The notes under the pieces: generated by a model
What the model was told of the DNA's origin: nothing
Database searches by the model: none
Seen by the model: only the letters and a program-made list of their open reading frames with translations
In this document: positions 19,139-58,593 of the stretch, one piece after another
How positions within the stretch are numbered: position 1 is the first letter of the stretch
Layout of the letters: the number at the start of each line of letters is the position of its first letter
Program-made: the position numbers and the translations under genes
Assembly (NCBI RefSeq): GCF_003073045.1
Contig: NC_037596.1
Location: 6,901,416-6,965,415 of the forward strand
DNA from: Pomacea canaliculata
Taxonomy: Eukaryota > Mollusca > Gastropoda > Architaenioglossa > Ampullariidae
Reading direction: 5' to 3'
DNA length: 64,000 nt

Positions 19139-19905
19139 AAATAAAAAAAATTCATATAGCTTGTGTCAGGTGGTCTGTGCTGTACACGTGTAATCACCAA
19201 GGTAGCTTGTAATCATGATCACAACTTTCGTAGTCCTGTTTCTAATATTTTGTAGATAAAACTCACATTAAAGGAATATTATTCTACCATGCACTGAATA
19301 TAACTGAAAGGTAAATGACCGTTCATTAGCGGTACTGTACCACTGATGATTACCTCCCTTGGATTGCACCACCTGCAAGCAGTCAGGACTTTATAATAAA
19401 GGAGGATAAGATAAAAACTTGTAACAATGTAATTGGAAAAATCAGCAAAGTGTCTTCTTATTATGAATTGCGAAATTGTATGCTGTCAAAAGCATGAAAA
19501 TAAATGTTTTTGACAGATTTTATAAACAACAAAGCTATAATATAGATTTCTGACATAATGATGTCATAAATTTATTGTTTTGTATTATTGTATGACATAT
19601 TAATCTTCATGATTTGGTTTAGCACTGAAAAGTTAAATTGTATACAACATCTTCTTTGTAAACTTTTGTGTCAGGTACAATACTGTCAAGCCTTAACTAT
19701 GTCCCTAAAACCAGCAAAAAAATATTTTTCACACTTTCACTCTGCTTCTTAGTCATCCATTACCTTAGCAACTGGCAGTTTGGCACTTTTACTAAAAATA
19801 CTGAATATTGGAATATGTTCCGCTATAAACTGACCTTTTTGATAAGGAAAGAGGGACCATGTGGCTCCATAACAGTTTTGCAAGTTTTTGTAGTTCTCTC
19901 CTCGA
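19139..19905. repeat. Array module X, copy 2
   Basis: Homologous to 11412-12190. Its upper end overlaps the last exon of gene C. In minus-strand sense it supplies the stop codon at 19749-19751 and a following AATAAA near 19570, so it is probably the 3' UTR of gene C. Confidence 0.7.
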
Positions 19906-22900
19906 ACCTTCTGTCCGCCCCACGTGATCTCACATCTAAACCAAGTTGTTCCATGACCTGCCAGGGTCAGGGTGTGACTGTAGTATAAAGTAGCAGATAT
20001 GTCATCTCGCCAATCTTCCATATCTAGCTTCGGTGCTTTTGTGACTGTACTTTCCAGGAACCCTAATCAGGTACCTCGGAGGTTGCCCCCGACTCGTAGT
20101 GCTGCAGCTACAAGTGATGTTAGTGTAGGGACATGGGTAGTATCTACCTTTGTATACTACATCTCTCACTCACACCTACACACACACACACATTTCAGTG
20201 CTCGGTTTATAACAGCTAATGTAATATAAACTCATTTTCTGCATCACTCATTTCTTTCCTTCTTCGAGCTCTTTAATGTATATCCACATATTTAATGAAA
20301 TAAATCAAAGAATATAAACACATGTAAACAAAATATAAAATTATGTCATGTGATATGAAGTATCAGATGAGTATACATTTACTCATATTCTTTTATCTAT
20401 ATATATATCATGTTTTATATATATATACTCTCACACACATTTTATTCATTCGTCTAGGTCACCGTCCTCAGTAATAACTTTAGAAATCGAGCTTATTTAT
20501 TTACTAAATCTAATAATGAATGGAATTGATCAGCATTAGAAATGTAAGTACTGTCAGGTGATAAATTATTTTTTACGCAGGTCATCAAACCTTTTACAAT
20601 TAAATATATAATAAATTCATTCCCATTAATCCTTAGTGTTACAGAGTCTACATTTCTATGGATCTTAGTTTAGCTAAATTATTCACTGGAAAGTAATTAT
20701 TTAGTGTTGTACATTTTATTAAAGGGAGATAGTCCCGAGATGCTTGCGGATAAAGAGGGCAACCGCTAACTTTGAAGCCTGATGATAGAAACTATTCAAT
20801 AATATGTTGTCTTGTGTCTCATAACTGAGCACCATGGTAGTCTAACCTGCAAATAGATTGGATGCTACACACACACACAAAGCAAACAACTGGGAATTTT
20901 TTTCACTTTTTGCTGAAATTCTCGGTATATTTTTGTCCATGTGGGAAAGAAAGAAAAGACACGTGAAAAGCTGCTTTTACAAATCGACTCACCCAACCCA
21001 AACTGTCTCGCGCATGCTCCCACATCAAGTAGCTCGTGGGCCTGACCTGGCTGCTGTCACGTGACATGACCCCGCTACCTTACAAGCCTCTGCATTCAGA
21101 AGAGGTGATAACAGCCTCAAGTGTTTCTCCACCATGCTGGCCTTTCGTGATCTCTCCATCCTGCGCTTCCGTTGCTGCCGAACTTTGAACGAATGACTCG
21201 AGCTTCAGTAACACTTTCATACATTCAGTTATTGATATCGACATTTGTTTACATCTTTTCTCTCCTTCGTCTCCTTCTAAAAATATTAAGTCTATCTCTG
21301 CGTTGTTTATAAATTCATTCCTCGGATCTTTTGCCATCTTGTCCCGTTGATCATCTTGTCTTTTCATTTGTGTTAATTTTTTTGGTGACTTTTAAATTTA
21401 AATAATGGTTGATTATGTTTTTAATAATCTGCATTATACTTAATTGTTATAATTAGTAAAAATATATGCAAACGCCTTATGATAATGATCTATGTAATTT
21501 TTTGCGTGTATATGTTTGTGATTGTGATATGCTTATACTCGCTATTGTGTGGAATAATATGGTGTATATGAGTTTAAACTTTGATTTATACATGAGCGAT
21601 ATGCTTGTTTCGATGGTTGTGTAGTACTAAACAAAGTGTTAGTGATAGACTTATATCTTACGCAAAATTTTTTAACACTGTGTCTTCGAGCATTTGACAT
21701 TAAAGGTCTGCAAGAGCATAACACATTTTTCTTGATCATGACAAAATAGAATTTACCATAACAATGCGCATGCTCTTGGATTTTCTTAGTAGAAATGCAT
21801 GTGTGTGTGTGTGTGCTGATATATACGTCCAAGAAGTCAAAATTCAGTGGTTTTTCTACTTTCTTTTATATCTATTATTACTTCCAAGGTAAGTCTGTAA
21901 ATAGTTTTTAAACTACATTTTAATTTTTTATTATTTTTTCCCTGAGCGAAAAGTCCAAACGTCAGACACAAGAAACTGTTTCGTGTAACCATTTGTAAAA
22001 AAAAATGTCTACAAGACCAGTCGTCCTTTACACGGAAATGACCACAAACTCACAGGACAAACAATAGTATTGTAAAGAAATTAATTGTAAAATAAAACGT
22101 GTTAAGCATTGCATACGTTGTTGAGACTCCTGTCCAATACTGAGACATTCTTTGGTAAACAAACAGTCGACTGCACTTTTCTTTATTCTATTTTTCTGTC
22201 ACGATAAAATATTTTCATTTAAGATGATGGAAGGGTAAATAGACAAATATATGAAGACTGAAAGAAAATTCCAAAGAGTGACTTTTAGTTTCAGTTCACC
22301 TTTATTACAAAATAGTTTTGCCTGCTTGGTGTCAGTTATGCATAACGAGGTATGACAGTGTGTTTCTGACTTACCTCCTATCATCTGCATCCAGTAAGAT
22401 GAAGAACTTAATGAGTGCAGCCATGACATTAAACAAAGCTAGAAGACTTTTGATTGGATCAGAACTGACAGATGCTTTTGAGCGTTGTTTAAATATTCGG
22501 TTTGATCTTTTAGAAGACAGCCGCTGGACATTATTTTATATCTCAGTTTTTAAAAGTACTAGAAAAAAAGAGTTAAGAAATCCAAAAGACCTACCTAAAA
22601 TTATGTTTTTTGGGGTTTTTGTTTCTGCTTGTTTATTTCTGTTTTTTTTTTTTCAGTTTGCTTAGACTTCTCTCTCTCTCTGCCTTATCCCCGCTGTTTT
22701 AGTTCAAAATATTGGGTTTTATTTTGTGGGCGTTGTTCATCCTAATATCAACCCGCGAGGAGGCTGAACATCTGATGTGCACAGGATAAATCTGCGGCCG
22801 AGGTCTCTAGAGCTCGTTTCCTAGGAATTCAAACTTTGGAGAAAACGCCGGGAAGTGTGAATTACTGGACGGACTCAATGTCGCGAGGGCTAAGTGTAGG

Positions 22901-36813: not shown

Positions 36814-39800
36814 ATGTCGTCGGCGTGGTTGTGCAGTTTCTGGCTTCTTCCACTCATTATACTTAATTCACGTCTGTCAGGTAAGAAACGGTTGTATCAT
36901 TACAAGCTTTTTCTGGATTATTATTACTATGCATAATTTAGTTTTTCCTTTGATATTTCTTGGAGGCTGTTGAACAGATTACAAACCTTATTAGAATAAT
37001 TTTTAATAATTTATGCAAATATGTTATGAAGTTAATTGTTATGCAAAAGTGTGTTTGTAGTGTCGAGAAGAGAATGAATACCTGGAAGCTTGGCACAGGG
37101 CGTGTGTGCTTTTTAAGCTAAATAAAAATTATCAGATGTTGATGGACAGCACTGATTTTCTGAAAAAGAAAATATTTAAAAAGGCAAACATGAAAAGAAA
37201 ATAAATGGAAAAGCTGAAAAGGTTTAAAATAAATGATCATGTGAATGAAAAGTGCGATGAAAAAATGGACATCAGAACACAAAAAAATTGAATGTAAAAG
37301 TAAACAAAAATGGACATGAAATATAAGAGTTAATAAAAAGAGAAAAATAAAAGATGAAAAAAGAAAAGAAAGAAAGGATAAAAAGTAAAAATATAAAAAA
37401 GAAGTAAAGGTAGGTAGATACATAAGCAGTCTTGCTGTCTTAAAAGGTTTTTATACTACAACTTTTTGGATATTGTCCATACTTCTTGTAATAAACAGTA
37501 AGGGGTGTCACACTCATTGCACATTGCATAGCGGATAAAATATACTCGGGAACTTCGTTTCCTGTTTAATGAATGAAGGGACGGCCATTTATACTCTTCG
37601 ACTACCTGTGTCCTAGTAATTATCAGCAGGAAAGGTAAGTCATGCACCCTACAAGGGATATGGCCAATTTTGTAGCCCTGGTCCTTAATTTATGACTGCT
37701 TCACTTAAAGCTAGACATGATGTATTGGCAATGTTGTCCATAGGAATGTTATTACCATGGGAATCCCATGGGAAACGTCCCATGGAATGGGATGGGATGG
37801 GATGGAATAGAAAAATATGTCCCATGGACAACCCTATGTATTGGACCATCAGGTCGAGCTGTTGTTTACAGATGTATGAATGTGGAAGTCGAAGTCCATT
37901 AGTGTTCCTGGCTGCTGCTTCAGGTAACTGGATGATGTGAGCTTTGTCCAGCTACTCATCATCTTCATTGCCAGAAAATCACGAATGTCAAATTTGAAAT
38001 ATTTCCATTTTTGTTTATATGAACCTACTTGATTTTTCTCTAACAAGCTCCCAGTTTTAAAGCATAGAAAGTATTATCTTTCTGTTGTCAAGAGTATCAC
38101 GTGCTAACAATAATTGTAAAGACACAATATTCTCTCCACGTCAGTAAATATCAGATCCTGTTGTTGTTGTTATGTTATGTTGTTACTATGTTATTCTCAG
38201 TCCGACGTATTCTGTATGTCCTGTCAAACTCGGCGCCACAACTGTTGACAAAACCAAAACTGCCACAAAACCGCCAAAGAAATATTCTCTCATAAAACAT
38301 TAATTTATTAGACTTGCTAATCCAGCGGCTTGTCTGTTACTAAAAGGTATGAACGAATTGTTTTAATTTCCCATCTGTTTTCCTTGTTTCCCTTTGAATA
38401 TAAAGTGACATTTATAACCCTTTCATTATTTAATAATTTAATTTAAATATGTTTGTCTTATTTCGTTGGAACGAAGTAGTCTTCTAGTTTGTGTGAAGGT
38501 GTCTTTAATCGCTGCCAGTTTATATGTCTTTTTTGTAATTCTTGTTAAATATTTTATAAACGGAGATGAAGACCTTGTCATTGTCATTCACTTGTGTTTT
38601 CCACGGAGAAATGCTAAAATGTTTTTGAGGGATCATGATGTGCAGACGTGTTGACAGCGTTGCACCTGTTGACTACATCCTAATGGGTGTCTTTTAAATA
38701 TATGTAGATTTTTTATTTAACTTTACATCAAGAAATAACTTTTCAAATAACACAACACCAGCTCCTAGACATTCTCTCACTCACGCACGCACGCACGCAC
38801 GCACCGAGAAGATTAAACCTGCAGAGAAGCAAGGACCTGGACACAAGAAAGTAACCTTCATGATGTTTATAACCGTCCGAGATCTCCCCTATTTTGTTCT
38901 AACGATTTCTAACTATTTTTTTACTAACCCTAACCCCGGGGTAGTGAGAGTATGAGCAGTGTTTGCCGGTCAGTCAGTCGCCCCTTGACCTCCACTTGTC
39001 GCTGGGAGGATCACATGGATAGACACGGCAGCTGACATGGCCGCTACTTTTGTCTACTGTGGGCGATGGTCAGCAGGTCCTGTACAGGACGACCAGTCCA
39101 GTCTTTGACAGTCGTAAGTCAGTTCTTCCTTTGGCCACCATGGCGTCGACTACTCTCTAATGTGTCTTGAAGGATAGTCTTCGACAAGGTGTCAATAACA
39201 ATTCTTTTCGGGTTTAATCATCATCATCACCATCATCATCATCCACACCACCACACAACACACCACCTCCACGAGTACTACATTTTGTTTAGTAACGTGT
39301 GCAAAACAATACAGGTGCTGTTAAAGATAATTTTGCTCGTAAAAGATTAACCCAAACACCTGAACTTTGCTCACTTTGATGTTTTTACACACCTTTTAGC
39401 GTCAAAGCGCAACCTTTAGTTATCTCCCATTTCAATCTTCCTAACTCTTTGTGGCGTGAACGCTGGAGTAAATTACCGGAGAGACACGGTTATTACCCTT
39501 GTCGCGGCCTCTTACCTGTAGAACCAGAAACAGACGCCCCAGGTGATGATAAATATGTTCCTTTGTGCGTAAAAACTCCCGGGGCATGAAAGAACTAATG
39601 AGACACAGTTTTGTAATCTTTTGGTTATGATTAGTGCAAGAAGCCATTTTGTCAGATCTTGATAAATACTTTTTGTCACGTCTGTTCTGATTACAAAGAC
39701 ATTAATCTATATATTTATATTTATATATAATCATGCCACTCACGGTGCAAAGCAATCAAATGAGCATTCCTTCTGATTCATTTTGAGAATGGTATTATGT

Positions 39801-42800
39801 AGTATGTTCTTTGCTGTTTTTTTATTTTTTCGGAAAAGAGTTCGATATGTTTTTTAGTTATTGGGACGTTTTTAGCAGACGTATATACTTTAGATATTTG
39901 TTTATTTACGATAGGGTTTAAAAATGGATTATAGTAATCTTTCGACAAAAAGGTGTTCTAATGTTAATACATTATGAAAACTATTGACATTTTTCTTCAC
40001 TATTTGCTTCTTTCTTCCCTCACATTTAACTCTCCCAACTGTATACTGCCCAGTTGGACTACAACATCTTTTGATGATGAATTCCTGGGACGGTGATTTG
40101 TCTCCATCTGTCACACGCAAAACGCTTTTTGTGCCTTGATATTATTTAATTTCTGACACATGTAAGTAGTCCTCTCTCTGAGTTTGTAGATAATAGCAGC
40201 TAAAGAAGCTATTTGATGACTATAATCACAGTAGCCAAACAGTTGATTTTCAGTATTTCAAGCAAATTTTATGTAAGATATAGAGAATTATTAAGGATGA
40301 ATATGTTAAAGAACAAAAAGAAACATTTTATTTTGTCTGCTTAGGGGGTAAAGGCAACCACATTGCCCACACAAAGTTATTCATTCTGACCAAATGATAT
40401 TCTTCGGCAAATAACTGATTACAAGAAACATTATTTCCACCTAAAGACATAATGACCTTCTTTAGTTTTCATCAATGGGCATTGCTTCAGCCTGTTCTCA
40501 CAAACATAGCCAAATGCTTTCATGTTTTGGTCTTCAAGTGTCAGAAGCATGTCATATGATGTAAATAAATTGTCAAAATACACCTCATCTTAGAGGTGTT
40601 TGTAGGCAGCTCAGAAAAGGTGTGACAACAATGACCTAGGCCATACCCTTGATTCTGACCTTTGTGCACCTTGTTGTTTGCCTACAATATACACGGTCCC
40701 GCTTGCGGCCATTGTTTCCATTTGGAGACATCAAAGGATTAGAAACATTTACATATCTAATAACTTTACTGCACAACAATAAATTACAAAGTTCCTAAAC
40801 ATTCCTACTTAATTTATCAGCAGGTTTAAAGAATGTATTACTAATGTAAGGCTAAATTGGAAGACTTATCGAAAGGAGGCTCATCTTATAAATTAACAGA
40901 TAATTTGAGAAAATGTTACTAAATAAAATTAAGATATTAGTCGCTATTTATGAGCCCTGAACGATAGTAGAGTGTAGCTCAAAAGAGTAGTTGTCTAGAA
41001 CATGATAGACAAAAGAAAAAAAGGATGGACGGAAAGAGTAAGTGATGACAGGGTGGACAGCTAGAATGCGAATCAACAATTAGATAAAGTAAGGTCCTTA
41101 CAGATAAACTGATTGACCTGCCGATAGCTGCGGTCATGAAACACGGCACCAATTATTAGTTTTTATCTAAGAAGAGCTTACATTCTTTGATGGAACCATT
41201 ATCGCATTTTTGCATTAATAAACTTAGCTATAGGCTACCGATCATTTTTCGAAGATTCCGGATCACTCGTGAAAATATGTTTGCTAACCTCTGCCACTCT
41301 TTTTGGACTGGTTTATTAAAAAGAATGAAAGAGGACAGGACAGGAATGGGACATGGAGCACATGACACAAGAGACACTCGCCATGTTTGTCGTCTGTCAT
41401 CTACTGTTGTATTTAGGACAAAGAAATTCTGATGGCGTAAGTGCCTGTGCTCCCCCTACCTTTCCCCTACCATGTATATTGTAAGAAATAACATAATAGA
41501 TATAATTAACGAAGGTTGTTAGAATTTCTTACAGAAAAAAATCGACATCGGCATACGTGATAATGTTTAGTAGTTAAAAGGTTACAGAGATTCCACAGAA
41601 CAGAAAAATTAACAGTCCAGAAACAGAAACCAAACAGCAAAAGAAAAGATTAAAAAATAAAAATTAATCCATTTTCCATTATTAGACTTTTAAATTCTAT
41701 TACTCATATGCTGCTGAACAAGCATAACTGAAATCTCGCATTCATGAAATGTTACCTGTCCTGTCTCTTTTAAATGTGACACAACGCTTAATAATCCTCT
41801 CATTAAAGATATACGAGACCAGATGTTGTCCCTGACAGTTCCTTTTTCAGGGACTTTCATTTTGTTCTTGTTTGTCTTTTTGTGTCACCACGCTCTCGCG
41901 AGCATGAGTCTGTGTGTTCGTGTGTGTGTGGAGGGGGCTCTTCCTCGCCATCAGTATCTTTAATTTGTTTAAGGTTTAATCAACATTTTATGAAAGCGGT
42001 TCTTTCATATTTTTCGAGGTGTGGGAGGGTTGTGGCGGTGTGGATAATGCTTACCATTGTGTCAGTAGCTAACACTGAGGTAGCTTGAACGTGAACTTGA
42101 ACTTTGAACCTTACAAAAGTCGGTGGCTCTTGCGTGAGAGTGCAATGTGGTCATGCGTTCGTCCGTAAGCTCTACCCACAGGGTCTGGACTTGGAGAAGG
42201 TTGACTTCCGGTCCATATTTATGATCCTCGGATGCGTGAACAAGTCAGATAATATTGGGGAATATTGGTTGATAATAGTGGGGAACATTGGACTTCTGGT
42301 GACCTTTTAGTTTGGTATTTTTGTTACCTTTAGTTCTTGTATGTATCGATAGAGCATGTTGAGAATAGCGAAAGCTAGACGGTTTGACATAATTATTACT
42401 ATTGGTTGGCATGAAAACGATTCAAACCTAATTAGCTCAATTCTGTTTCAGAAGAAGTAGATCATTAGAAACATCGATGAAATAAAGTATTTTTTTAAGA
42501 ATATTAAGCAATCGTAGTGTTTGTGTTTTGGCGGACTATGCTCCTCGAGAAGTAACAAGGAATAAATTAAAGGCCAGCGAGGTTTTTTGCACACAAAGGC
42601 GATTATTTGCCATGATAAAAGCCGTTTTTGATGACCTGGAGGTCAGAGGCTGCGACTGGTGTCTCCCTTCGACTATTTAATTCGCCGTTGCCGCGAGTGA
42701 AGACAGTTGATAAAGAGGCTACAGCACGGACACTGGGGGTGGGACGGGCTGGCGGTGGGAGGGCGGCATTATAGACACGAAGATGAATGTAGACGGATTT

Positions 42801-45800
42801 AGAAATATCGTAGATGAAGATGAGTTTATATAATAAAAACGACTTTTATCTCTCTCGTGTACATCATACTACTTGTAAAATATTCCAATTTGTATTTTTT
42901 TCTTTCTCTTTTACGCACGCACGTGCTCAAACACACACACACACACGCATATTTTCTTCATCTTCGTGATTATGATGGTCGTCCTGATCCTCCTACTCCT
43001 GCACCTGCTCCTCCTCCCCTCATCGTCAAGTAAAGTTGTGATAGCTGGGTTCTTAGTCTGAGGACGGACGCCTCATGATGGTTCGTAAAGTCTTAATGTG
43101 ATCATGATTCCCGTACACGAAAGCTAGAAACCTGAGTCTTCATCGTACACGATCAACTAATTTTGGACAAGGGCGGATGGAGACAAAGGTAAACAATGGA
43201 ACCAAAACAGGACAGAGGTGTGTGTGTGTGTGTGCGTGCGTGGATATTTGTGTTTATGTGTGTGTGTGTTACGAATGTTATTTGAGAAGGTAAACACCAA
43301 GATCAAGGCAGCCGGCTGCCAGAGAGTGACAACAAATGTCACCTTATCACGGCTAAGACCATGTTTTGTCTATGCTCTCAACAGGAAATACACCCAGATT
43401 AAAGACAATAACAAAGTCGTAATATTATTTTGAAAAATATGTAATAAATTAAACAATATAAACTGACAGACATTTCTCTGTCCTTACCCTTCGACCGCTG
43501 AAACCCTTTATCTTGGTTGACGTCCATTCTTTTAAGAAACAGTGTTTTTAGCAGCTCAAGATATATTATTATAAATATTATTAAGATGTTGTTGTGGATA
43601 ACACATGAAAACAAACTCTAAACATAGCAGCAAGGGGAGACCCTTCAGGCATCCAGTCACCTGCATTGGTCTGAGCTCAAGGATTTATGGCGCCTCACTC
43701 GCATGTGTGTGTGTTTGATTGTGTGTGTACTGAAGATTTCTGTTTGCTTTCACTTTCTTCTTAACTATTGCATTATTGCTTTCACCTCGACTACTTGTTG
43801 AATGATGATGGAGATCCAAGGCCACGCCTTGTACAAAAATGGACAAAAATCTCTCAAGATAAAACAGTTAAACATACGTTTGCGAGTCTCTTCAACTATT
43901 TGCACTGCTTTATTAAAAACAAACAAACAAAACAGCAAAAAAAGTTACTTTTACATTTTTTTTTTATCAAACTTCACTTAGTCACTCCACATTTGTGTAC
44001 AGGTTGGCTTCTTAATGTCCATCACTCAGTAATTAATCGCATCCCTGCTTTAACCCTGTTTATTAGTTACTCGTCGTTTTCGAATATTCCAGATGAGTCC
44101 AAACATCTAAAGACAGTCAAAAGTAGGTTTGCAAGTCTCTGCAAGTGTGTGCACTAGTTTTTTTTAGAAAGGCACAACAGAGAACATCACAGGACACGGG
44201 GCATAGGAAGCAGGGCATAAAACTCAGAAGACGCGCCAAGTTTGTCATCTGTCATCTATCTAGGCCAGACATAGTCAGATGGTGTCATTGTCCTCAAGGC
44301 CTCCACAATCCCCTGTTGCCTGTGTGCACCTTGAAGACATGCTGGTATGCACTCGTTTTTATTGGGAGGGACATGCGTGAAGCGCCATAAATCCTTGCGC
44401 TCACAGCAACGAGGCAGGTGACTGCATGCGTGAAGGTCTCCCCTTGCTGCCATGTTCAGAATTTGTCTTCATGTGTCATCAGCAACAGCTGCGTAATAAT
44501 ATTTATAATAATGTATCTGCAGTTGCTATAAACATTCTTTCTTAAAATAACGGATGTATAACCAAGATAAAGGGTTTCAGAGGTCAAAGGGTAAGGATAA
44601 ATTAAGCTATCATGATTTAGGAGGGATATGTATATCTGAGGGACAGACAACAATAAACTGCTAACGTTTTCCCATGATTACTTTCACGTGAACTTATGTA
44701 CTCTCAAAGCATGCGTGAAGTATGTTCAACAGAAAGAAGACAAGAGAAAATTGACCTGCAAGTGCAAGTGCAGTCAAAAACCAAAGAAAAAAGGAAGATT
44801 ACAAATGAGAAGCATCAATCCATCTTTGCTTTAACATGCTTTTCATTTATCCTGGTCACATGCTTCTGAACAAGTATAAAAGACATGTTATATTCATAAA
44901 ACTATCAACATATTTCCTCTCCGTTTTAAGTATGACACAACGTTTTCATAATATTTCATAATATAAAAATTTACGACATGCAGTTTCTGACAGTTTGTCT
45001 CTGACATATTTTAAGTGCGTTTTTTTCTGTGTATGAGTGTGTATAAGAAAAATCAACAAAGAATGTTCCGTTATTAGGCAAAAGAAACAAAAGATCTTTT
45101 GTTTTAATGCATTCCTTGCTTAAGTCATCGAAATTGCATCAGTCTGCTTATCTGTACGTTTGTGGCTTTTTCTTGCCGTGGAACCCTGTTTGTGTGTTTG
45201 TGCTGAAGTATATTTTTAATAATATCTATACCTTGTCAGTCAATAAATTTCCATTTTCTTTATTTGACTTAGATTGCATAATTTATCTGATAATACTTTC
45301 TCCTCATCGTTGCCGTCCTCCTTTTTCTCCTCCTCCTCATTGTCGTCGTTATCATACACACCACAGTAACTGCAACACGATGCTCAGTGAAAGATTACAA
45401 TGTCATCGGTTCGTCTTGAACTCTGTCTGAAAGTATTTTGTGAGTTTCGTCGAAGCACCTGCAGTCGGCACGCTTTGATCTTTGACACACCTGTCAGCAT
45501 TCACGTAGAGCCTCGAGGAGTTGCTCCCCCAGACATACCGCTGTGTCATCGACCCTCGTCGCTCGCGCGTCCGTCGAGTACATCATCAAAGAGAAAGGCC
45601 ATTAGTAACTTGTCACGACCTCTTACCCCTAGGGTAGAAATAAAAAAAAAAAACACCGCCCACAGTAAATGACAAATAGGTGCTGTTCTGCACAAAGGTA
45701 ATCTTTTAGCTTTCAATGGCTTGAAATATTACTTTTTTTAATAATTGAATAAAATATTCATAAAGGAAGATTTTATGTCAATATAAATACTTTTTCTGTT

Positions 45801-46619
45801 CCCAATATACCACTCGATAAAATGTTTAAAATTTCTGTGACCGTGTCTGGAAAGTGGAAAGTTTGAACTACCTCCCTCTCCCCCCCCCCCCAAACAAATA
45901 CAAAGAAGATTTGTAAATACTTTTTACATCGAAATTTGAGACTAGCGGCAGTCGAGAGAAGAAGAGGCACGATTGTAACTGTCTTTCCCAACCTCACGAT
46001 TCTGCACGACTTTTTTTTTAACCCATCTTCACCAGTATCGTTCTCATTTGAGGATTCGTTGCCATATCAGTCACGGAATGCGAGTAGACGACCAGCCTGT
46101 CCTCCCGCCCGGAGGACCGTGCGGTGTTTAAACTTCACAGCACGCGTACCTGTCGTATAGGTGGCCCCTGAGATTAGTCACAGTCATCTGCGAGGAACAT
46201 TTCATGTCCAAGTGTACACAAAAGGGCACAGAATCAAGGGCACATTTGTTTGCCCGTCAGCTTGCGCACCCAGCGGCCATATTAATGTCCCGGATGCGAT
46301 TCGCAGGTGGGTGACGCAACGTGGCCGCCTGAGGCGCCATTGGTTCCGCGTAACGCCGCGAGGGTTACATGTGGTTACAGCTGAAACACGCGTGACGCAC
46401 TGAGCATGCGCGATGACAGACGTTGAAGACGGATGGATAGGAACCGAGTGACAGGAAACAAAACAGACTAAGAACACGGCAGGAGACAGAAATCCGACTT
46501 GCAGACAGGTACAAGACGCAACGGACGGTCAAAAAGGCGGACCAAGACGGAAGTACAAAGCTAATAATAACACACAGTACAAAAAGACCTTTTATCAGAA
46601 ATAAGTAGTTCCCCCCCCC

Positions 46620-46652
<33 letters not shown>

Positions 46653-49301
46653 AGACGTGAAAACTAATAAAATCATATATATGACTAAATATATTTTCAC
46701 ATAGAGTCTATTGTCGACAACAAAAGTAGAAACAGTAATAATACAATAATAAAAGTAATAAATTATGTTATTCCAATAAAATGTGTTTATGCAAAGCAAC
46801 ACAATGTTATTTCTTCTATGGTTGTATATTATAGTTTACCATATCAAGAAATTGCTGTTGATCTTGTTATCAGTTTGTATGCTAAAAGTAAGATGTTTAT
46901 TATTGATGTGGTTAAGTAATGTTCTTGAAGGTACGAGAGAAAGAGAGAGGGGGGAATGACTGTTTTTATTACTGAATTTTTAACATGGCATGTAGAGGTA
47001 ATACGATTTTTAGACACGTTTAACTGACACATCCAATACTCTCATTAATACTTTCTTTTTATTTTTCCATCAGTATTTTTGTACATCGCATTCAAACTAT
47101 TCTCTACATTTTGGTGTTATTTTTATCCTTACAGATGAACTTACCCTTTAGACTTAACACATCTTGTGAAAAAGGGTATTTTTTTTACTATTGACATAGA
47201 TATGCCGTTTGATTGCTTTCTAGTTAACGTGGACGCCCAAACTTCAGGGGCCAAAATCAGCACTGGTGCCTCGAGTGCCAGCGGGCAGTCTGCTGTCATC
47301 CAAACAGTCAGCGGGTACCAGCCCCAGATCCCCACGTTGATGTACCAGGTTCCATTTCCAGGCCCCTTGATGCAGCAAAATCCAGCTTCCGGGGTACAAC
47401 AAGCATCCCCGGTGGTACAACAGACACTCCCTCTGGGCGGACCCATGTGGATACAGCAGCCTCAGCAGGCCTTTAATAACCAGCCTGCGCAGGTGGTGTA
47501 CTCCAACCAGCTACCGCCCTTCCCTCTGCAGCCCACCCAGGTACTCCAGCAGATTCAACATCCAAATGCTCAGGTAGTTTACGTGCTTCCCCATCCCTCG
47601 CAACCTGTCAACCAGCCTTATTTCTCTCCCCAGGTGTTGGCCAGCTGCCAGGTCCATCCCAAATCGTGAACCTCGCCCCTCCGTTGCAACCAGGCAACCA
47701 GACGTCTCAGGTGTTCACGTGCTATCCCAGAATCCCTCGCTCCCTATGGGGGTGTACAGCGCACCAAGCCCGATGCAAGCCGGCGGTTATCCTTCTTACT
47801 ATTCCGTGGTCTACTTGTCCCCTTCGCTCCCAGCGCAGCCACCCGAGCAAGATAGTAAAGGGACGGAACCACGGGAAACATCCGGAAATAACTCCTCAGC
47901 AGGAAGCGGGACAGCGTCACCTAGATCCTCTCAAGGTTACAGCAGCCCGCAAGCTAAAATGACTATTACTCCATTTCCGGAGCCCCCAGCACCTGCTGCT
48001 TTAGTTTCACCGCAAGCTCAGGTTCAGAATCTAAATCAAGTTCAGAGCCCAGGTAAGGGACCACCTCAAGACCAAAGCCGAGGTCAGGCAACAGCCGAAA
48101 TTCGAACTCCAGCGCCGACGCCACAACCACCACCAACATCAGCGGTGACCTCAGCGCCCCCTGAAAAAAAGCCGGTAATGGGTCAAGTCGGCAGCAACTC
48201 GACCAACTCCGCCAAGACGAAGACCAGCAGCACGCTGCAGCATGGGCTCCACCTTACCACGGCAGCTGCACAGCGCGTCGCAGACCCTGGCTCGGCAGCT
48301 GGGGGTGACTCAGTACTACGAGGCTCACGGCTGTCTCGACCCGGGACTGTACCTGCCGCAGGACAGTCAGGGTATGACCTGCGCAATGCCGCAGGCTTAC
48401 ACCATGTGCCGGGTGGTGGGACAGCTTCATCGGGCCACCCGCGGTCATGGACTGATGGGTGTCGGCTCCCCTCTGGTCAGCCGGGGGCTGCTGGAGACCT
48501 GCCTGTCTCAAAGCTCCTTCCGCCGCCAGCTCATGACTGTGATGGGGAACGACCATTTCGGCATCGACCCCTTTATGATGTCCAGCATGATGGGCACGCT
48601 GGACGGGGACATCATGATGCGGGCAATGGCCCTGATGAACATGATGAACGGCGGGGGCTCTGGGATCGTTGCTGCACCTTTGATCAGCCCTAGTTCTGGA
48701 ATCAACGGGGGCGGTAGGGAGAAGGCGACCCCAGCACCCTCCTCGGCCGCCGGAGGTGGGGTGGACGACCCTAGCGGGATGTGTAGCCTGGTGTTGCACA
48801 TGCTGCTGATGCGGACAGACGTTGGCATGGTGCTCCCACCCGATGGCATAGAGTCGATGTTTGACATGCGACGGACAGCGGTACCCTACCAATGCCAGGA
48901 CCTGCGCGCAGGACTCATTCACTTCTCAATGTGCTGCCCTAACCAGAGTAAGCTTCCATCCATCCTCATCATAGTTACGATGGTGTTTGTACTCTGAGTA
49001 TGAGAATCAGAAAACAAAATAATCCCTTAAGCATAGTGATGTCTTCATGTCTCCAGAACACACATATGCACACATGCACACACGCATAAATTCACTTAAC
49101 CAGAGGGAAGGAACGCTTGAACTGAACCATATAATTTAGTTACGATTGTTTTTATACTTTGAGTAAAATAAATTTAATCATAATTATTTCCTAATGAGTT
49201 TAGTGTTTACACTACGCAATGGCATCTAACTCTTCCTTTCTTTGTGTTTCGCAGTGAATTCACCCTCCATGATGGACCTACTTACCACCTTATTCACCTA
49301 G
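36814..49301 (+). CDS. Gene D: secreted Pro/Gln-rich protein with eight-cysteine C-terminal domain
   Basis: Exon 1 (36814-36880) is a signal peptide (MSSAWLCSFWLLPLIILNS, phase-1 donor GTAAGAAA). An in-frame ATG at 36580 exists, but the signal sequence favours 36814. After a 10.3-kb intron, coding starts at 47224. The large coding block changes frame. The simplest reading is exons 47224-47633, 47731-48052 and 48195 (or 48228/48231)-48947 with two short GT-AG introns, then 49255-49301 ending in MMDLLTTLFT; total 532 aa. Residues 23-266 are Pro/Gln-rich with repeated QVVY-type motifs. The C-terminal domain has GVTQYYEAHGCLD, MTC, TMC, ETC, a Met/Gly-rich insert, then GMC, PYQC and MCCP (eight cysteines). 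Gene E is a paralogue. I do not recognise the family; a role as an extracellular matrix, mucus or gland protein is only a guess. Confidence 0.65.
38955..39195 (-). mobile_element. LINE 3'-terminal fragment (end of reverse-transcriptase ORF)
   Basis: The minus-strand translation contains GGQRKN, VKDWTGRPVQDLLTIAHSR and nearby W/R residues. These match the RQRKxW..xVxxWTG...LLxxAxxRxxW ending of many animal LINE polyproteins. Three in-frame stops are present, and only the last 80 or so codons remain. Such 5'-truncated LINE ends are common intron residents. Confidence 0.75.
40325..40740 (-). mobile_element. piggyBac-type transposase fragment
   Basis: The minus strand from 40583 reads VYFDNLFTSYDMLLTL, then MKAFGYVCENRLKQCPL, down to a stop at 40431. 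This is the conserved piggyBac block (xFFDNFFTSxxLLxxLxxxGIxATGTIRENRxxxCPL) and includes the catalytic Asp in FDN. Further homology continues out of frame on both sides (GTVYIVGKQQGAQ upstream, an ASNxF-type stretch downstream). Frameshifts and stops show a dead copy. TTAA-flanked terminal repeats were not found. Confidence 0.85.
41260..41900. repeat. Old intronic duplication, copy 1
   Basis: Diverged homology to 44080-45050. Shared landmarks are GTTTGCWARYCTCTGC, GACRCKCGCCAWGTTTGTC followed by CTGTCATCTA, ATGCTKCTGAACAAG and TGACACAACG. The order is conserved and spacing varies. No coding function is apparent. Confidence 0.6.
42533..42570. repeat. Short dispersed repeat, copy 2
   Basis: Second copy of the element at 10894-10942, ending in GTAACAAGGAATAAATTAA. 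Confidence 0.45.
44080..45050. repeat. Old intronic duplication, copy 2
   Basis: Counterpart of 41260-41900, longer because of insertions between the shared landmarks. Confidence 0.6.
46080..46560. promoter_or_regulatory. CpG-rich island near the main exon of gene D
   Basis: A CpG-dense stretch in an otherwise AT-rich intron, about 0.7 kb before exon 2. It contains GCCATTGG (inverted CCAAT), GAGCATGCGC (NRF1-like core) and several CG-rich words. It could be an alternative promoter or an enhancer. No first exon was found. Confidence 0.35.
46611..46651 (+). repeat. Poly-C/poly-A tract
   Basis: Ten C followed by about thirty A. This is a slippage-prone tract and possibly the tail of a retroposed sequence. 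Confidence 0.9.
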
Positions 49302-52300
49302 TCTCCAACAACAGTGACAGGACAGCAACAATAACAGCAATATGATGTGTGAATCGAAAGAGAAGACTCTAAGAAAGGAATTATACCCAAAGACACTGTA
49401 GCAAACAATGCAAGTAGATATTAGACATGAGATAAACAAGTGATATTGAGGCTAGCTTGGACTGGGATTGCTCTGATGCTAACAGTTTAGCATTTCTTCA
49501 CCGGTGTTCTGCAGCAAGCAGTCAAGTTGAACATGTGCACCTAGGAAACAATGCATCAGGAGAATTTCAATGCATGTACTGCACTATTTATTTTTATTAT
49601 GCGATTATCTGATAATCGTTCAGTCCGAGAACGTTGCCATGGAAACAAATATCAGCAACTCCGCCAACTGTAGCAAAACCTTGCTGAGATAGACTGTCAT
49701 GCAGTTTCAGACTGCCAAATACATTTTAAAAAACTCAAATGAAAACATTTAGCATGGGCTAAGAATTTCTTTCCAGTCTCTCTAACATAAAGAGAACGCC
49801 AGTGTTGACACTGAGCGCAAGTCATTACAAGACTGGTTTGTCAATTTTTTTAATGGTGATTTCAGTTTGGTTTTGTGTCTTTCAGAATGTCAGTATGTTA
49901 GCCTGCATGTCTGCCTGTATTTCTGTCTGAATTTTCATGAATTTATCTGTCTTATTCCTTTCTGTGTGTCAGGGTTGTGTGGATGTGAGTGACTGTGAAT
50001 GTACAAAACTGTGGAAATGCATTACTTGTATATAGTTTTGTTCTATAGACTATACTGAGTGCATGCCTACACGAAAGCTTTGTTTAAATGCATTTTGTAC
50101 TATACACTATACGGTATGGATGTTATTATACTATAATTGCATAATTTCATATACTCTGATACCCGAGAATGTGATATTTTGTTTACATTTAATTCAAAAG
50201 GGAGATAAACATTATTTTGCTGGTAAATCAGAGATGACAAATTTCTCAATTAAAACTTATCCGAGAGCACACAAAGATACTGCAGGATTAAGCAGATAAT
50301 CCCAAACACCTATGTCATACAAAAGACCTCACACAAAGCAACAAACAATAATCTGCACATCTAGCAGTACTTATTCTCTAATTAAACATCTTTCACATGA
50401 TTTATCAGCTCAGTGTATAAATAATAACATCAAGTATAATGGGCATTTAACAGTATTTTGACCAGCATTTAATCATCGCTTTGCACCTACCTCATTGTTC
50501 CATTACCAAACACTTAACAGACTGTCATAGTGGATAAAAGGAAGAAACTGCTGTTTAGTTTCAGATCCTTTTCAGGGTTCTGTCCCTTAGAAAGAAGACA
50601 GTAAGTCATGATTTAGCTCTGAATATACAACTGTAAACTTATCATGGTGTGGCCTAGTGTCATATGCTGTGTGGGTTGCCAACTCTTATATAAATTTACA
50701 TGCTAATCTAAAAAAAAAATACAGCATCAAAATAGGTCTAGTTAAAACTGCAATTGTTTTAAAATAATAGGTTTGTTTGGGTTGGTGACTGCATCATGTC
50801 ATGGCACTATTTGATTAGACAATATCAACACCACAATATTCAAATTACCATATTTTACATTAATTGATTCCTTAAATCTACAGAATATCTTTATTATTTT
50901 AGTGTAGTAAAACAATTACCAGGCACCAGGAACTTCTTTTTACAAACGTTTAGAAACATAAGAAAATGTTTCTGCTTGTAGTGGAGAAAACTGTTTAGCC
51001 ATATGCAGTTGTAAACAATAGTGTGAAATATATGTTCAATGTCACAGGCTTTTTCTCTTTTGCTATCTTCTTATTGGAGATGTAACTTTAATGTCTCTCA
51101 AAGCAGTCTATGGTGGTTTTCATATATCAAAGAGAAAATAAAAATCTGGTGAGATGCAATGTCATTATCAAACTCAGTTTTATTTTTTTCACTAATTTCA
51201 ATTAACTAGCAATGTGGGTGAATAAAAGCAGCTCGGCAAAGAAGAAAGAAAAGAAATATGAAGGAATGGAAGAAGGAAGAAAATAATTCGACAAAACCAT
51301 GTAATAAAGTGTAAGACTTTAAAGTAACAAACATTTAAACAAGCAATAAAATGGTCTGTAACCTCTTAAGTAATTTTTAAAAAGTCACTCTGATTATGCT
51401 TGCATGAAAAATATTTTCCCTTCTTGGTCAGAAGGAACAATTGCAGAATACAGAGCTAAAGGCTATTTTTTAATTATGTGATATTCAACGAGGCTGACAC
51501 CTCATCGACTTTTTCCCCGCAATGTGGAGATCGCTGTTACTTCATGTGTGGAATATTTTTAATTCTTTCCTAATTGCATGACTTTGGAATACAAAGTTAG
51601 CAGAGTTCAAAGCTTAGTGTGGAAAACCAGAATTTGCAAAAAATAAATAAATAATGATTTACATTGTGAATAGAAAATAAATAGCCACAAAAGGATAAGC
51701 CGGTGAATTATTTGACTTCGTGAGTGAGTTTCAATTGTGAAAGGTGTTAAATAATGTATATGTGGTAAATAGTGGATGTGTGTAATGTCATGGATGTACA
51801 AAAGTGTCAATTTTTGTATCCATATTTTTTTGTCTTATACCTCATACTCTGTGTCTGTGTGGTTGTCATCCTTTTTATTCGTTGTCAAAATATTCCATTT
51901 TTTCCCATATTAATGTCAAGCTGATTCATGCGACAGCAAATTTTTATCACTACATCATCCTTTTTCTGTTGATTATTAATTCTTCTGAAGCCATCATTTC
52001 CATCCGGTTTTCCATTTCCACTTCCTGTGTATTCATCTCTGTCCAAATCCTTCTTATCTGTCTTATTATAATAGTTTGTTTTGTTTTCTTTTTTCTTTGT
52101 GTCTAAGTATTTTTAACAACAATTTATAAACAAACCGTCAAACACGGCAGCTGACCAGTCAAACCATAACCCTATCCCAGTAGACAAAATCAATTATTAT
52201 AAATATAGAAAACAAATCTTACAGGTTAATGATTGTAAGCTCATTTAGCTTTATATATAGCATGCTGTGTATAAGTCTATTTTTCTGTATACCACTTCTG

Positions 52301-52911
52301 GTTCCCATGATGGATAGTTTCCCTGTCTGAGATGACTTTCAATCTCGACCCTTCCTCTTTACAGTCAAAAGTGGTTTTATACACCAAAATTTCCTCCAAT
52401 TGATATACACATAATACTTGATGTCTTCATACTTAGAGAAAAACTCAGTGTGTAAATATGTTTATGAAAACAACGTTGACTACAGAGGACATGGGGAGGT
52501 TCAATCATTCTGTAACTGAAAGCAAAGGAATGGCTACGGATTTATCAGGGAAGATGTATTCTGCCTTTGCTGCCTCTTTTCTATGGAATCCTTTGTGACA
52601 TTTAAAGAATGTTAAACACGCTAATGTTTCAGTACATCTGCATAAATTATAAAGTACTTTGGGTAATAAAGGACGCATAGTGAGGAGTTTTCTAGAATGT
52701 ACTTGAGAAAAACAAGAGACCGGGAAAAGTGTTGACTCCACCTCCCTGATATGCTAAACACACAGACACGTGACACAATTCAGTCAGAATGCACACTAGA
52801 GTGACACGAAAAGAGGAAGTTGCCTCCCACTTCTGTTGTTGCCAGAGGCTGAACAGGTCACAAGACTACCTCTCCATCCAACATTGTAAGTGTGGATCCT
52901 GCAGCATCAGT
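49302..52911. other. 3' flank of gene D and spacer before gene E
   Basis: It presumably begins with the 3' UTR of gene D. No AATAAA lies close to the stop; candidates occur much further on (about 51138 and 51345). No other gene, repeat or RNA is recognised. GACACGTGACAC at about 52765 is an E-box before gene E. Confidence 0.5.
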
Positions 52912-53898
52912 ATGGGACTTCTGGTCATTCGTGCAGTCTTCTGGACTGTGACTCTTCTTCCTGGACTGGCCTTGCAACAGACTGGTAAGATACTTGTCTA
53001 AGTGTATTATTGGCACTAATACTTTTATGATTTACCAGAAAACAAATTTTATTTCAAGATTGTGTGCTTTAAAAAAAATAATGTTAAGTTTTCGCCGTTG
53101 TGAATTATATACCGAGCAAACATATGTAATCACTGGTTGAACATGAAATTATGAAGCTTAGAAAGTTAATGTGACACAAAGTATAATATATGGATGGTAT
53201 GAGACTGATGCTTTGTCAAAAATACATTTTTCAGAAATAGTTGCTAGACCTGTAAGCAAGAAGCAAGAGGATTATATAATCATCATGAAGCAGGTTTTAT
53301 TTCATTCTGACAACAAAAAGATTTAAGTGAAAATAAATGTCAGCTCCAAAGTACGAAAAAGTGTCAAAATATTTTACTGGAGAACGCCAGGGAGAAAAGG
53401 GAAGGGAAAAAAAACCCACATTCCACAAGGCGTGAAAAAAAATCGGTAAAAACACACACAGAAGGAGAGGAAGAGGGAGAAACAGGAAGATAAGTAGAGA
53501 AACTAAAAATGATTATGGATGTACGAATGTAAACAAAATGTATGAATGCATTCACTTAAAAAAAATGAAATGGAAAGACCAGGGTGTAAGTCGGTAAAAA
53601 AAAGTTCCTTAACCCTAACATTTGAGGATACTGGAGCACACGGATGAGGTGAACGGTCGTTTATTCATCTGCTAAAAATACCTCACTTACTGACAGTTCC
53701 CATGTAGGGATGCATGAAGGAATGCACCGAGTGCAATAATGTATGCATGGGTTTTTCTCGGATGACATGCGTTTCTCAGCCAGGCGGTCAACCAACCAGC
53801 CAACAAGTTACAAGTTCATAACGGCCATAAAGTCAACCACTAATTAATGTAACACTTTTATCAGTTTCTTATGCTTATTAAAACACACATACTCATCC

Positions 53899-53929
<31 letters not shown>
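53899..53929 (+). repeat. (TCA)n microsatellite
   Basis: About ten TCA units in the intron just before exon 2 of gene E. Confidence 0.9.
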
Positions 53930-56059
53930 TGTTTGCTACAATATTTGGATTATTTATTTTATTTTTTTGCAATCAAAAGCCGTTCCTGGGTCAGTATCTA
54001 CTATTCCCAAAGATGTCCCAAAGATGTCATCCATCCCGAAGAATTCATTGCCAGGTGCCACCCAGGAGGCAATGTCTGTAGCTGATGGAGTACCACCCCG
54101 GGTGCGGAAAGGTCAGGTAGCAGTCTTTCTCTCTCTCTCACCCACGCACTTAGTGAAGCTCAGCAAGTTGATGAGAATTTTAACAACACATTTTTTCTCT
54201 CGTATAAATAAATCATTGCATCTTTAAGAAAGTGTTTATATTTTTCTTGAACATTTTCTAGTTTATCTGATTTTTCTTCTTATCAAGCTCTGAAAATTTA
54301 TTTTGCAGTGTGGTCAACCAGTTTAATCCCTCACCGATCCGCCAGCCAGTTTCTCCTCCGTTGGCAAACCCTACCTGGTGGCTACTGTCCCCCATCAGGT
54401 TCCTAACCAAAATTCTCTTCCAAATCAGGCTCTGCTCCTAAGTTCATTACAATCTGCTTCCAACATAAGCCATCCGCCTTACCAGTATAGTCCTCCTTTT
54501 ATAATCACGATCATTCAGCCCTCCAAGGGAATAAGTGCTTCACCGCAAGATCCACAAGCGGCCATCGCCTCTCCTCAAACCATCCCGACAACAGTGGCGC
54601 CACCGCAGCTTCCTCAAGGGACTAACCCGCAACCCTACACTTTGCAAGTTATGTACCAACCTATCCCCCTACCCCAGGTGGTCTACCAAGCTCCACAGTA
54701 CAATCCAGCGAGTCTATTTGCTCCACCAGTAGTGTACTACCTACCACCTCCTTCCATGGTAGTGGAGCCTACAGTCTTAAGTCCAGCAAATAGAAATCAA
54801 GGCCTGGCTGGACACAGGAATACAGTTTCTACTTCAGGATCCTCCACTCTGCCAAAGAGCCCGGCGGAAGCTCAGCACCTCAAACAAGCAGTTTTGCCTC
54901 AAAAATCAGAAACAGTTCCTCGAGAGCACCTGCATCCACAAGGACGTCAGATAGAAGTACCCCTGCACCTGCCTCTAAAGGGCGAGGTAACCAAGGCAAC
55001 AGTGCCACCTCGTTTCGGAATGTCTTCTTGTCGCAGTTGCTGCAACCTGCTGCACAGCAGATGGCGCGTGCCTCGGGTGTCGCGCAATACTACGAAGCCC
55101 ACGGCTGCCTTGACCCCCCGGCAGTTCATGCCCTAGCGTTGACGAGAGGCTGCACCTCAAGTCATGCGCAGCGGGCGTGTGAGGCCATAGGTCATGTTGG
55201 TGCAGAGGGTATGGTTCATAGTCCTGCCCTGTCTCACCTGATGAGTGTCATGTTCCCACCTGTCACGAGCGCGCGTCTGGAAGCATGCTTGTCGATGACC
55301 ACGATCCGCCAAGTGACGACGCAGGCAATGAAGAGCGGTAGGATGGGTTTAGCCCGCTGTCGACGATGATAAGGACGCTGGCTGAAAGGATGAGAGCGAG
55401 GACGCGCGCGGTGCCCAGCGGTAACAACAGCACGCACAACGCTGGTGGGGGTCACAGGTCAAGCCCGAGGTCAAGATGACGTGTGTGAGCACGTGGTGTC
55501 CATGCTGGCCATGAGGGCGGGGTGACGCCGACATCCCTGGAGGGGATCATGGAGGCGGTTCGTGACCTCAGGAGACACACGATGCCGTATAAGTGTCAGG
55601 AAGGAAAGGTTGGCGCCATGCCTTTCAGAATGTGTTGTCCAGGACATGGTGAGTTTTGTCAGACCTACAGAGCCTGTTAATTTATCAGGATTAAGGGGAG
55701 ATCCTTTCGGTAATTTTCTCTGATAAAAGTTAAATAGACTGGATGTCGTGCTATCTTATTCATAAGAAACGAACATCTTTTTTTTAAACGATGTTTAAAA
55801 AAGTCTTTACTTGTTTACTGATTTATTAACAGTGATATATGGCGCATGTTTGTAAAAACAAAATGTTTTTGTAATAATAACAATTTTATGACATAATTAA
55901 TACGCTTTCAGAGTTTTTAGATACAGACATAATTTACTCATGATGAGAGCGAGCTGGATAGCGAAGGAAGGGAGAGTACTGCTGATACATGTTGCAATTT
56001 ATTCTTTAGGGTTGTTGCCCTTTTCCGAATAAGCTTTGAAATGCGATTTCAACTTTGTT

Positions 56060-56060
56060 T

Positions 56061-56142
<82 letters not shown>
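56060..56142 (+). repeat. (TTG)n microsatellite
   Basis: About 27 uninterrupted TTG units in the last intron of gene E. Confidence 0.95.
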
Positions 56143-58593
56143 GCGTTGTTTCTCCCTTCTACTCTCTCGCCAATAATCTTTTTTTTTTAAAAATACATAC
56201 CTTGACAACAAAAAAAAAATAATAATAACTGATAAAAGCAAAATAAAAATAATTATTCAGAGCAAAGACATGCTACACATTTTCGAATGGAGACAGATAA
56301 ATAGTAAAAATATAGGGTGGGGAATGGCTGATGGCGGATAAAAGGACTGGGTGAGAAAAGGAGTGCAGTTAACTTGAAAAAAAAAATCTGCTGTTTAAAT
56401 CACTTGCTTTTGCCTTCTGATTGTCTGAGAAGATTTTCTTCAATTTCGGGTTGGTGGGAAGGTAGTGAGATAAGGGCTGAGAGTAGCACAGTAGTTCACA
56501 CTCGCTCATTACAAATGTTTTATGTTCATATCTGGTATCGGGGTACACGTACTTCTCTTTGGATAGAACACCTTTTCAAAGGGCTTTTCGTTGTGTGCTT
56601 TCTTCAGTTACTGTACGGTCCCTTCTCCCTTCCCTAACCAAGAGTGGGAAATCACTAAAAGGTGTAAGCAACATTTATCTATTGTGTTACAGTTGATTCA
56701 CCAACTCTGATGGACCTCGCTTTTTCGACCCCTGCCTAGCGTCCCACAGTGTGGTGACAAGCGAAGAAACATTATGAACGATGGGGGAAAAGTTTATCCT
56801 TTCGGTATGTGGGTTTATCTGTTGCTGGATCGACAGACTAAAAACAAGACAAATGTGTGCACATGTACAAAAAAATACCAACAAACCTGGATTTTGACAA
56901 AGGCACATCGTGTAGTGTTCCTCTCTACCGATCTCGAAAGTGAAGTAGAAGTAAATGGTAAGCAAGATGTAGACATTAGACACAAGCAGGACAGAAGTGT
57001 TTGTGTCATGTCGTTATCCTCAATCTTCGTGAAACTAACTCTGCTCCTACACCTCCATCAGTCTGTCATTTATTCAGTCTTATTAACCGCCATATTAAAA
57101 ATAATCTTTCATACTGATCTCTTCAAAATTTCATTTCTTTTATACAATTGTACTTTCAATTTTTATGTATTCTAAGATTTATAGTTTCTCAGACACACTT
57201 CTTAAAATAATAACTTCCTTTTTTCTAACTTTATTCATAATCGTATGATTGTTATTCACACTTTGGAAAACGGAACATATGAAAACGAAGTAGATTTTTT
57301 TCTTCACGATAATATTTAAGATTATTAATAATAGTGCGACTAAATAAATAAACTACATATTTACAGGTGAATAAAATATTATTTTAGAGGACAGTCATGT
57401 AAGTTCATGATTTGTCGCAGTGATATTCAGCGTGTTTACTCAAATATGTTTTCTTATTAGTTTCTTTCTAACCTAAGCTATTATGGTCCTAAATAAACTG
57501 TCTTGGATTATGTTTCTTTATCTCTTTCTCTACCTTTGTCTCTCTATTCCACATCCCACATACCCACACACACACTCACACACACGCACATGAACACGCG
57601 GAGAAAAGAAACAAAGAACTTAAAAAAGAAAATAATAAAAAAAAGGAATAAAGAAAGACTTTTTGGAAAAAATCTGCAAAGCTTTGTTTTGTAAAAATCT
57701 GTCTGATCATTTAAAATTGATGTTCTGTTTTCACGCCGTTCTTAGAATGTCAACAAATTGTCAGCTGCCAAAGTTTTATCTGTTCTTTCGAAATCTGTTT
57801 TCATGACAGAAAAAAACCTTAGCCAGACAAGGTGACATGTTTTCTGTACTCGTCTAAGAACGACCTTCTCAGATAAAACCCACATGCCGATTCGTTTAAA
57901 GTGCTTAAGTAGAATAATATATATATAAAACCCACTGACAACTAGTAACGGTAAGTCGTCCCCACGGTCGGGTCGGCTTGGTCTGAGTCTGGTGGATATC
58001 AGTTAAGTTAATGATAATTACAAACCTCGTATATAAATATTATTACAGTATTTTCCTTTTGTTTTATAATTTTTAACTGTCATTTATATTTTGGAAAGAA
58101 AAAATCACTATCTAAAGCCTCCAAAAGCTAGCACGCGCACACACAGTAAAAAGAAAGAGTAAACAGGTCATTCAATCTCTTCGACCATGCCTGGGACTAC
58201 GCTGCAAACTTCCGTTTTTGTCAAGAAATGTTCTCGGCAAAAGACTGATAGCTATTTCAATCAAGGTTCGATCATTTCCGATTTCCCTTTTCCTCAACGA
58301 CCCGGCAACAGAGCAAACAACGCCGAGGCAAGGACTTAGGATTCCTCAGAGAAAGACAGGGTCACAAGTTGAAGTTGTGTTTGTACTTCTCTGTACAAGG
58401 GTGTGACAAGTGTTCTAACTCAGTGTCAGACGAGTTTCTTGTTATTTTATCCACTATTGCTTCAGCTTCATTATCATTTTAATGATCTGTAAAGTTGTTT
58501 TACGATGAAGTCAGATAATGTCCGTCTCATGTCAGACTGTTACACACAAACGCGAACTCGCACAAACGCTGCACTCATTTAGAAGAATGTTTG

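Follow-up and report, generated by a model that had tools for sequence, protein, structure and literature searches.

What do two neighbouring genes of the gastropod Pomacea canaliculata, here called D and E, encode, and do they belong to a protein family that is already catalogued? Both lie on the + strand of a 64-kb stretch of contig NC_037596.1 (positions 6,901,416 to 6,965,415), the whole of which we term the window and number from its first nucleotide. The original prediction, made from this sequence, was of an unrecognised family of Pro/Gln-rich secreted proteins with a cysteine-rich domain. D and E are adjacent duplicated copies and true paralogues that share an eight-cysteine C-terminal domain. 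The comparison supports a common family of putatively secreted proteins under purifying selection, and we place at roughly 0.4 the probability that the pair arose by tandem duplication and encodes a secreted protein restricted to its lineage, probably one that builds a matrix, a function that we infer.

The shared domain

The domain motifs read GVTQYYEAHGCLD in D and GVAQYYEAHGCLD in E, and PYQCQDLRAGLIHFSMCCP in D and PYKCQEGKVGAMPFRMCCP in E, which bears out the proposed signatures GV-x-QYYEAHGCLD and PY-x-CQ...MCCP in both genes. Two residues before MCCP, where either phenylalanine or histidine had been suggested, both genes have phenylalanine (FSMCCP, FRMCCP). The eight cysteines (C1 to C8) are spaced 15-8-30-93-36-12-0 in D. 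All eight were expected to align and in E they can indeed be aligned, with spacings of 14-8-35 for C1-C4 and 12-0 for C6-C8, and with C5 on a separate segment; they do not, however, occupy one uninterrupted frame, C1-C5 being read in one frame and C6-C8 in another. The insert between C4 and C5 of D is Met-rich, with up to 11 methionines per 40 residues.

A tblastn search of the window with the D domain finds E with E values of 1.5e-11 (C1-C4 part) and 7e-6 (C6-C8 part). A third copy of the domain was not found in the window, the only other row having an E value of 3.5. The 19-residue segment that carries C5 in E resembles the second half of the D domain (p 0.0034, 5000 shuffles), and a longer stretch of E around C5, in the same frame, gives p 0.023.

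Over the domain and last exon 62 of 148 residues are identical. The 148 codons compared comprise the domain and 14 codons of the last exon; gapped columns, the C4-C5 insert, the stretch from the C5 helix to IESMFD/MEAVRD and codons split by introns were excluded. The proportions of nonsynonymous and synonymous sites that differ (pN and pS) are 0.38 and 0.70, and this disparity argues that the protein has been conserved after duplication. The ratio pN/pS is 0.55, with a bootstrap range of 0.43-0.68 and 0 of 1000 replicates at or above 1, and the differences fall 66, 50 and 88 at first, second and third codon positions. Jukes-Cantor correction gives dN 0.54 and dS 2.04; synonymous sites are saturated at this distance, so that the corrected ratio of about 0.26 is a rough figure.

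Organization of the two genes

The segments of D, all on the + strand, are as follows.

36814-36880, +: exon 1, start codon and signal-like peptide MSSAWLCSFWLLPLIILNSRLS, phase-1 end at CAG/GTAAGA, hydrophobic peak 2.72
47224-47633, +: Pro/Gln-rich region, part 1 (frame 0), two VVY motifs
47634-47730, +: frame-change zone 1, GT...AG, 97 nucleotides (nt), 60% GC; very short intron or indel-bearing coding sequence
47731-48174, +: Pro/Gln/Ser-rich region, part 2 (frame 1), one VVY motif
48175-48265, +: frame-change zone 2, GT...AG, 91 nt, 60% GC; intron or indel
48266-48947, +: eight-cysteine domain, 227 complete codons read in a single intact frame, phase-1 end; Met-rich insert between C4 and C5
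49255-49301, +: last exon (SPSMMDL) and stop

The signal intron of D is 10.3 kb long and separates the signal exon from a GC-rich block, 47224-48947. The corresponding block in E is 54346-55648, and the segments of that gene are as follows.

52912-52984, +: exon 1, signal-like peptide MGLLVIRAVFWTVTLLPGLALQQT, phase-1 end, hydrophobic peak 2.24
53980-54111, +: probable small Pro/Ser/Val-rich exon with weak borders, partly resembling the start of the next exon
54346-54986, +: Pro/Gln-rich region (frame 0), two VVY motifs; 5' and 3' borders both uncertain
54987-55036, +: frame-change zone preceding the domain, GT...AG, 50 nt, 52% GC; intron or indel
55037-55337, +: domain, C1-C4 (frame 2)
55338-55457, +: interrupted zone with frame-2 stop codons, 62% GC; frame 1 weakly like the insert of D
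55458-55516, +: segment carrying C5 (QDDVCEHVVSMLAMR, frame 2)
55517-55648, +: segment carrying C6-C8 (frame 1), entered by a frame change that an intron explains poorly
56693-56739, +: last exon (SPTLMDL) and stop

The signal-like exons, judged by eye and by hydropathy, end in phase 1 at GTAAGA donors in both genes, as had been proposed. The terminal introns are likewise of phase 1 and lead into last exons that read MNSPSMMDLLTTLFT and VDSPTLMDLAFSTPA; over 14 residues this pair resembles each other with p 0.0028 (5000 shuffles), in agreement with the tiny SP-x-x-MDL exon originally described. Counted crudely over nine positions, the donor of the signal intron scores 8 in D and 7 in E, and that of the terminal intron 6 in D and 8 in E. 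The five longer introns have a GC content of 34-38%.

The Pro/Gln-rich part of D has 284 residues (on a model with short introns), of which 18.0% are proline and 14.8% glutamine, with three VVY motifs. In E the main Pro/Gln-rich exon provides 213 residues, 17.4% proline and 10.8% glutamine, with two VVY motifs. There is no cysteine in either.

Homology between D and E upstream of the domain was also sought in 9 pairs of frames. The lowest p value, 0.018, came from D frame 0 with E frame 2, which is not the open frame of D there, and after 9 tests we take it as chance.

Within E, residues of the small exon (53994-54050) and of the next exon (54378-54434) form a repeat-like stretch of 19 residues that is 42% identical (E value 0.87, within the window). 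Two near-pure triplet arrays are present, one of 12 TCA copies at 53893-53929, shortly upstream of the small exon, the other of 29 TTG copies at 56055-56142 within the last intron.

Searches for a known family

Pfam-A gave no family at E values up to 1 for the D domain, the C1-C4 part of E or three Pro/Gln-rich stretches. At E values up to 10 the only match was Vasohibin (E value 0.25, 11 bits against a cut-off of 24), with the 44-residue C6-C8 fragment of E. NCBIfam returned none for the D domain and that fragment, and for the C1-C4 part of E the NirA family at an E value of 0.12 and 10.5 bits against a cut-off of 523. The best hit of the D domain among PDB sequences, a tetracycline 7-halogenase with an E value of 1.2, is not credible, and a profile of the two genes, in which MAFFT placed the E rows poorly, reached at best 2.1. 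The domain thus appears to match no curated family in Pfam, NCBIfam or the PDB. The proposal of an unrecognised family holds against these three libraries, and the word undescribed should be taken within their limits.

A search of viral contigs gave no related locus. In prokaryotic contigs there were 5 and 17 pattern matches, of which tblastn confirmed 0; the viral and prokaryotic scope says little in this case. The motif strings of the domain were unmatched in the literature, and we recognised no publication on this architecture among the matches listed. On sequence grounds the paralogous pair with its conserved domain is real, and the family is known from one locus.

Interrupted reading frames

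How are the changes of reading frame, on which the original prediction was silent, to be explained? D is read in frame 0 to approximately 47633, in frame 1 by 47731 and in frame 2 by 48266. E is read in frame 0 to approximately 54986 and in frame 2 by 55037, with frame-2 stops from 55367; downstream, frame 2 is again used at 55460-55516 and frame 1 from approximately 55519. The stop codons of E fall between C4 and C5, in the frame shared by C1-C5. A scan of codon usage by frame was uninformative and often favoured another frame inside the known domain frame of D. Three explanations are considered, under which E would be an intact gene with assembly errors, one with very short introns or a decaying one.

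The first attributes the frame changes to indels introduced in assembling GC-rich sequence, with both genes intact in the animal; we consider this possible, at rather less than even odds. The changes do sit in exon-like sequence with a GC content of 52-62%. A frameshift-tolerant alignment of the D domain to E, which places changes at 55351, 55469 and 55519, tracks D through the interrupted zone and scores 208 net of penalties, up from 143, compared with 27, 36 and 36 for shuffled controls (n = 3). The stretch 55338-55457 on its own, however, bears no significant resemblance to the insert of D (p 0.175), and the coding stretches for immunoglobulin (Ig)-like exons elsewhere in the window look mostly clean, though their GC content is lower and this counts only weakly against a high rate of indels.

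Alternatively the frame changes might mark very short introns of about 47-120 nt, which seems somewhat unlikely. GT-AG pairs of matching phase occur at all four zones (47634-47730, 48175-48265, 54987-55036 and 55338-55457), the candidate acceptors preceding the domain in D and E lie within one codon of each other and the zone donors, at 6, 6, 6 and 5 of nine positions, overlap the 8, 6, 7, 7 and 8 of the outer introns. Yet stop-free pairs of matching phase are commonplace: the zones contain 11, 19, 16 and 24 of them, and when two of the zones are base-shuffled as controls at least one pair appears in 70 of 100 and 58 of 100 cases. Since shuffled sequence so often supplies them, the GT-AG pairs in the zones say little. 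The zones are also 52-62% GC, unlike the longer introns. Near 55519 two trial ranges gave 12 candidate intron pairs. Six have a donor after C4 and would excise the C5 segment wholly or partly, and six, of 47-74 nt, start inside that segment; pairs of 50 and 47 nt retain C5. Every one of the 12 nevertheless deletes residues that align with D, either DDVCEHVVSMLAMR, in whole or in part, or this together with the start of the MEAVRD segment.

That one or both copies are decaying pseudogenes, with the working members of the family elsewhere, we judge somewhat unlikely. In its favour, both genes change frame, and the change in E near 55519 is flanked on both sides by residues that align to neighbouring residues of D. 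Of 16 tblastn rows for the Ig-like exons, 6 are the queries themselves and the other 10 are each aligned in a single frame, with stops near the ends in two; a uniform rate of indel errors is therefore not an obvious cause. Against decay stand the intact domain and terminal exon of D and the purifying selection apparent in the comparison of D and E. In addition, an Ig-like match near 20 kb is itself broken into two pieces that are read in different frames, so the window elsewhere is not free of such changes.

D is the likelier working copy since its domain frame is intact.

Proposed function

The signal-like exons suggest secretion. The Pro/Gln-rich part may be disordered and provide a flexible, self-associating spacer, whilst the eight cysteines would pair as disulphides within a C-terminal domain that is probably helical. 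This domain might fold in the secretory pathway and join or orient the chains. The product could then build an extracellular matrix or secretion, for example the matrix of the shell, the covering of eggs or mucus. Of the readings that we can infer, a structural secretion is the most economical, and it fits the account of mollusc secretomes given in those parts of a review that treat them (PMC4897951).

Several observations weigh against it. Neither gene is a single open frame between its outer splice sites. The Pro/Gln-rich part of D aligns with that of E not significantly better than their composition predicts, with a score of 108 against a shuffle mean of 92 (p 0.092, 500 shuffles). Because that score is within reach of the shuffles, it is the position of this part that argues for shared ancestry; the low-complexity region with QVVY-type motifs that had been ascribed to both genes stands as to composition and VVY motifs and falls short as to alignment. 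A single-sequence AlphaFold model of the D domain (helices only, with a predicted local distance difference test score, pLDDT, of 36 and a predicted template-modelling score, pTM, of 0.20) is unusable. The likeness to molluscan shell proteins, discussed below, is one of composition only, the comparison having been made by description.

It is doubtful that the products are soluble secreted factors, immune or reproductive, rather than matrix building blocks: the genes adjoin Ig-like exons arrayed in tandem on the opposite strand, and secreted domains stabilised by cysteines often serve in such roles, but neighbourhood by itself says little and Pro/Gln-rich spacers of 200-280 residues are found more typically in structural secretions.

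Lineage-restricted secreted proteins build shells, egg coverings and mucus and are poorly covered by family databases. Present support consists of two paralogues at one locus; if expressed proteins prove to contain the domain, this group would gain an extracellular domain that has not been curated.

Other features of the window

The array of Ig-like exons extends over 7443-29635 on the - strand, with weak V-set and C2-set Pfam matches below the cut-off. Repeat copies recur at distances of approximately 12.0 kb, 9.4-9.8 kb and 1.74 kb, and two of the exons, 17251-16934 and 29254-28937, encode protein sequences with 90.6% identity. The match at 19890-20124, also on the - strand, consists of two pieces that lie in different frames and are separated by 73 nt, with either an intron or a frame change between them. 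Overlapping frames at 977-1528 on the + strand resemble, by a familiar motif, the end of a reverse transcriptase of a non-LTR (long terminal repeat) retrotransposon; the single piece submitted to Pfam, 1087-1392, gave no match. Rfam at the gathering threshold and ARAGORN found nothing in the window.

Comparison with known systems

Proteins that are secreted and carry a biased low-complexity region are familiar from the molluscan shell matrix, and the signal-like exons and Pro/Gln composition of D and E fit that description. Reports describe Q/P-rich shell proteins from abalone (PMC6003135), and Met-rich and Q/P-rich ones among abalone, limpet and pearl oyster (PMC6003135, PMC4094399, PMC7591529). 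The likeness is in the biased Pro/Gln/Met composition, several of the shell proteins being predicted to be disordered, and the Met-rich insert in the D domain extends it. They differ in that the descriptions given in the sections of these papers on such proteins include no eight-cysteine C-terminal domain (PMC6003135, PMC4094399, PMC7591529).

The SCPP enamel proteins of vertebrates, ameloblastin and its kin, are likewise secreted and Pro/Gln-rich, a comparison of manner of working only. SCPP introns are, in the relevant passage of the source, virtually all of phase 0 (PMC6732285). The signal and terminal introns of D and E are of phase 1, and membership is ruled out to the extent that this passage describes the family. 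D and E differ further in possessing the cysteine domain.

In cereal prolamins of the gliadin and glutenin type a Pro/Gln-rich part is also followed by a cysteine-rich C-terminal domain with a CC pair. There the CC pair is central (C3C4) and accompanied by a CXC motif. Membership is ruled out in this case too: the sole CC of D and E is C7C8, there is no CXC, the spacing in D is 15-8-30-93-36-12-0 and Pfam gives no match.

Spidroins combine a disordered spacer with a terminal domain that is small and helical and may control assembly. The model of the D domain contains helices only, but its pLDDT of 36 is too low for use, and D and E differ in their eight cysteines and their composition and have no Pfam match.

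The widest reading, which we regard as a long shot, is that C-x15-C-x8-C-x30-C-x(n)-C-x36-C-x12-CC, opened by GVxQYYEAHGCLD, defines a new family of animal extracellular domains whose members cap disordered Pro/Gln-rich chains and control how these assemble. It would then represent a third independent solution, beside those of the enamel proteins and the plant prolamins.

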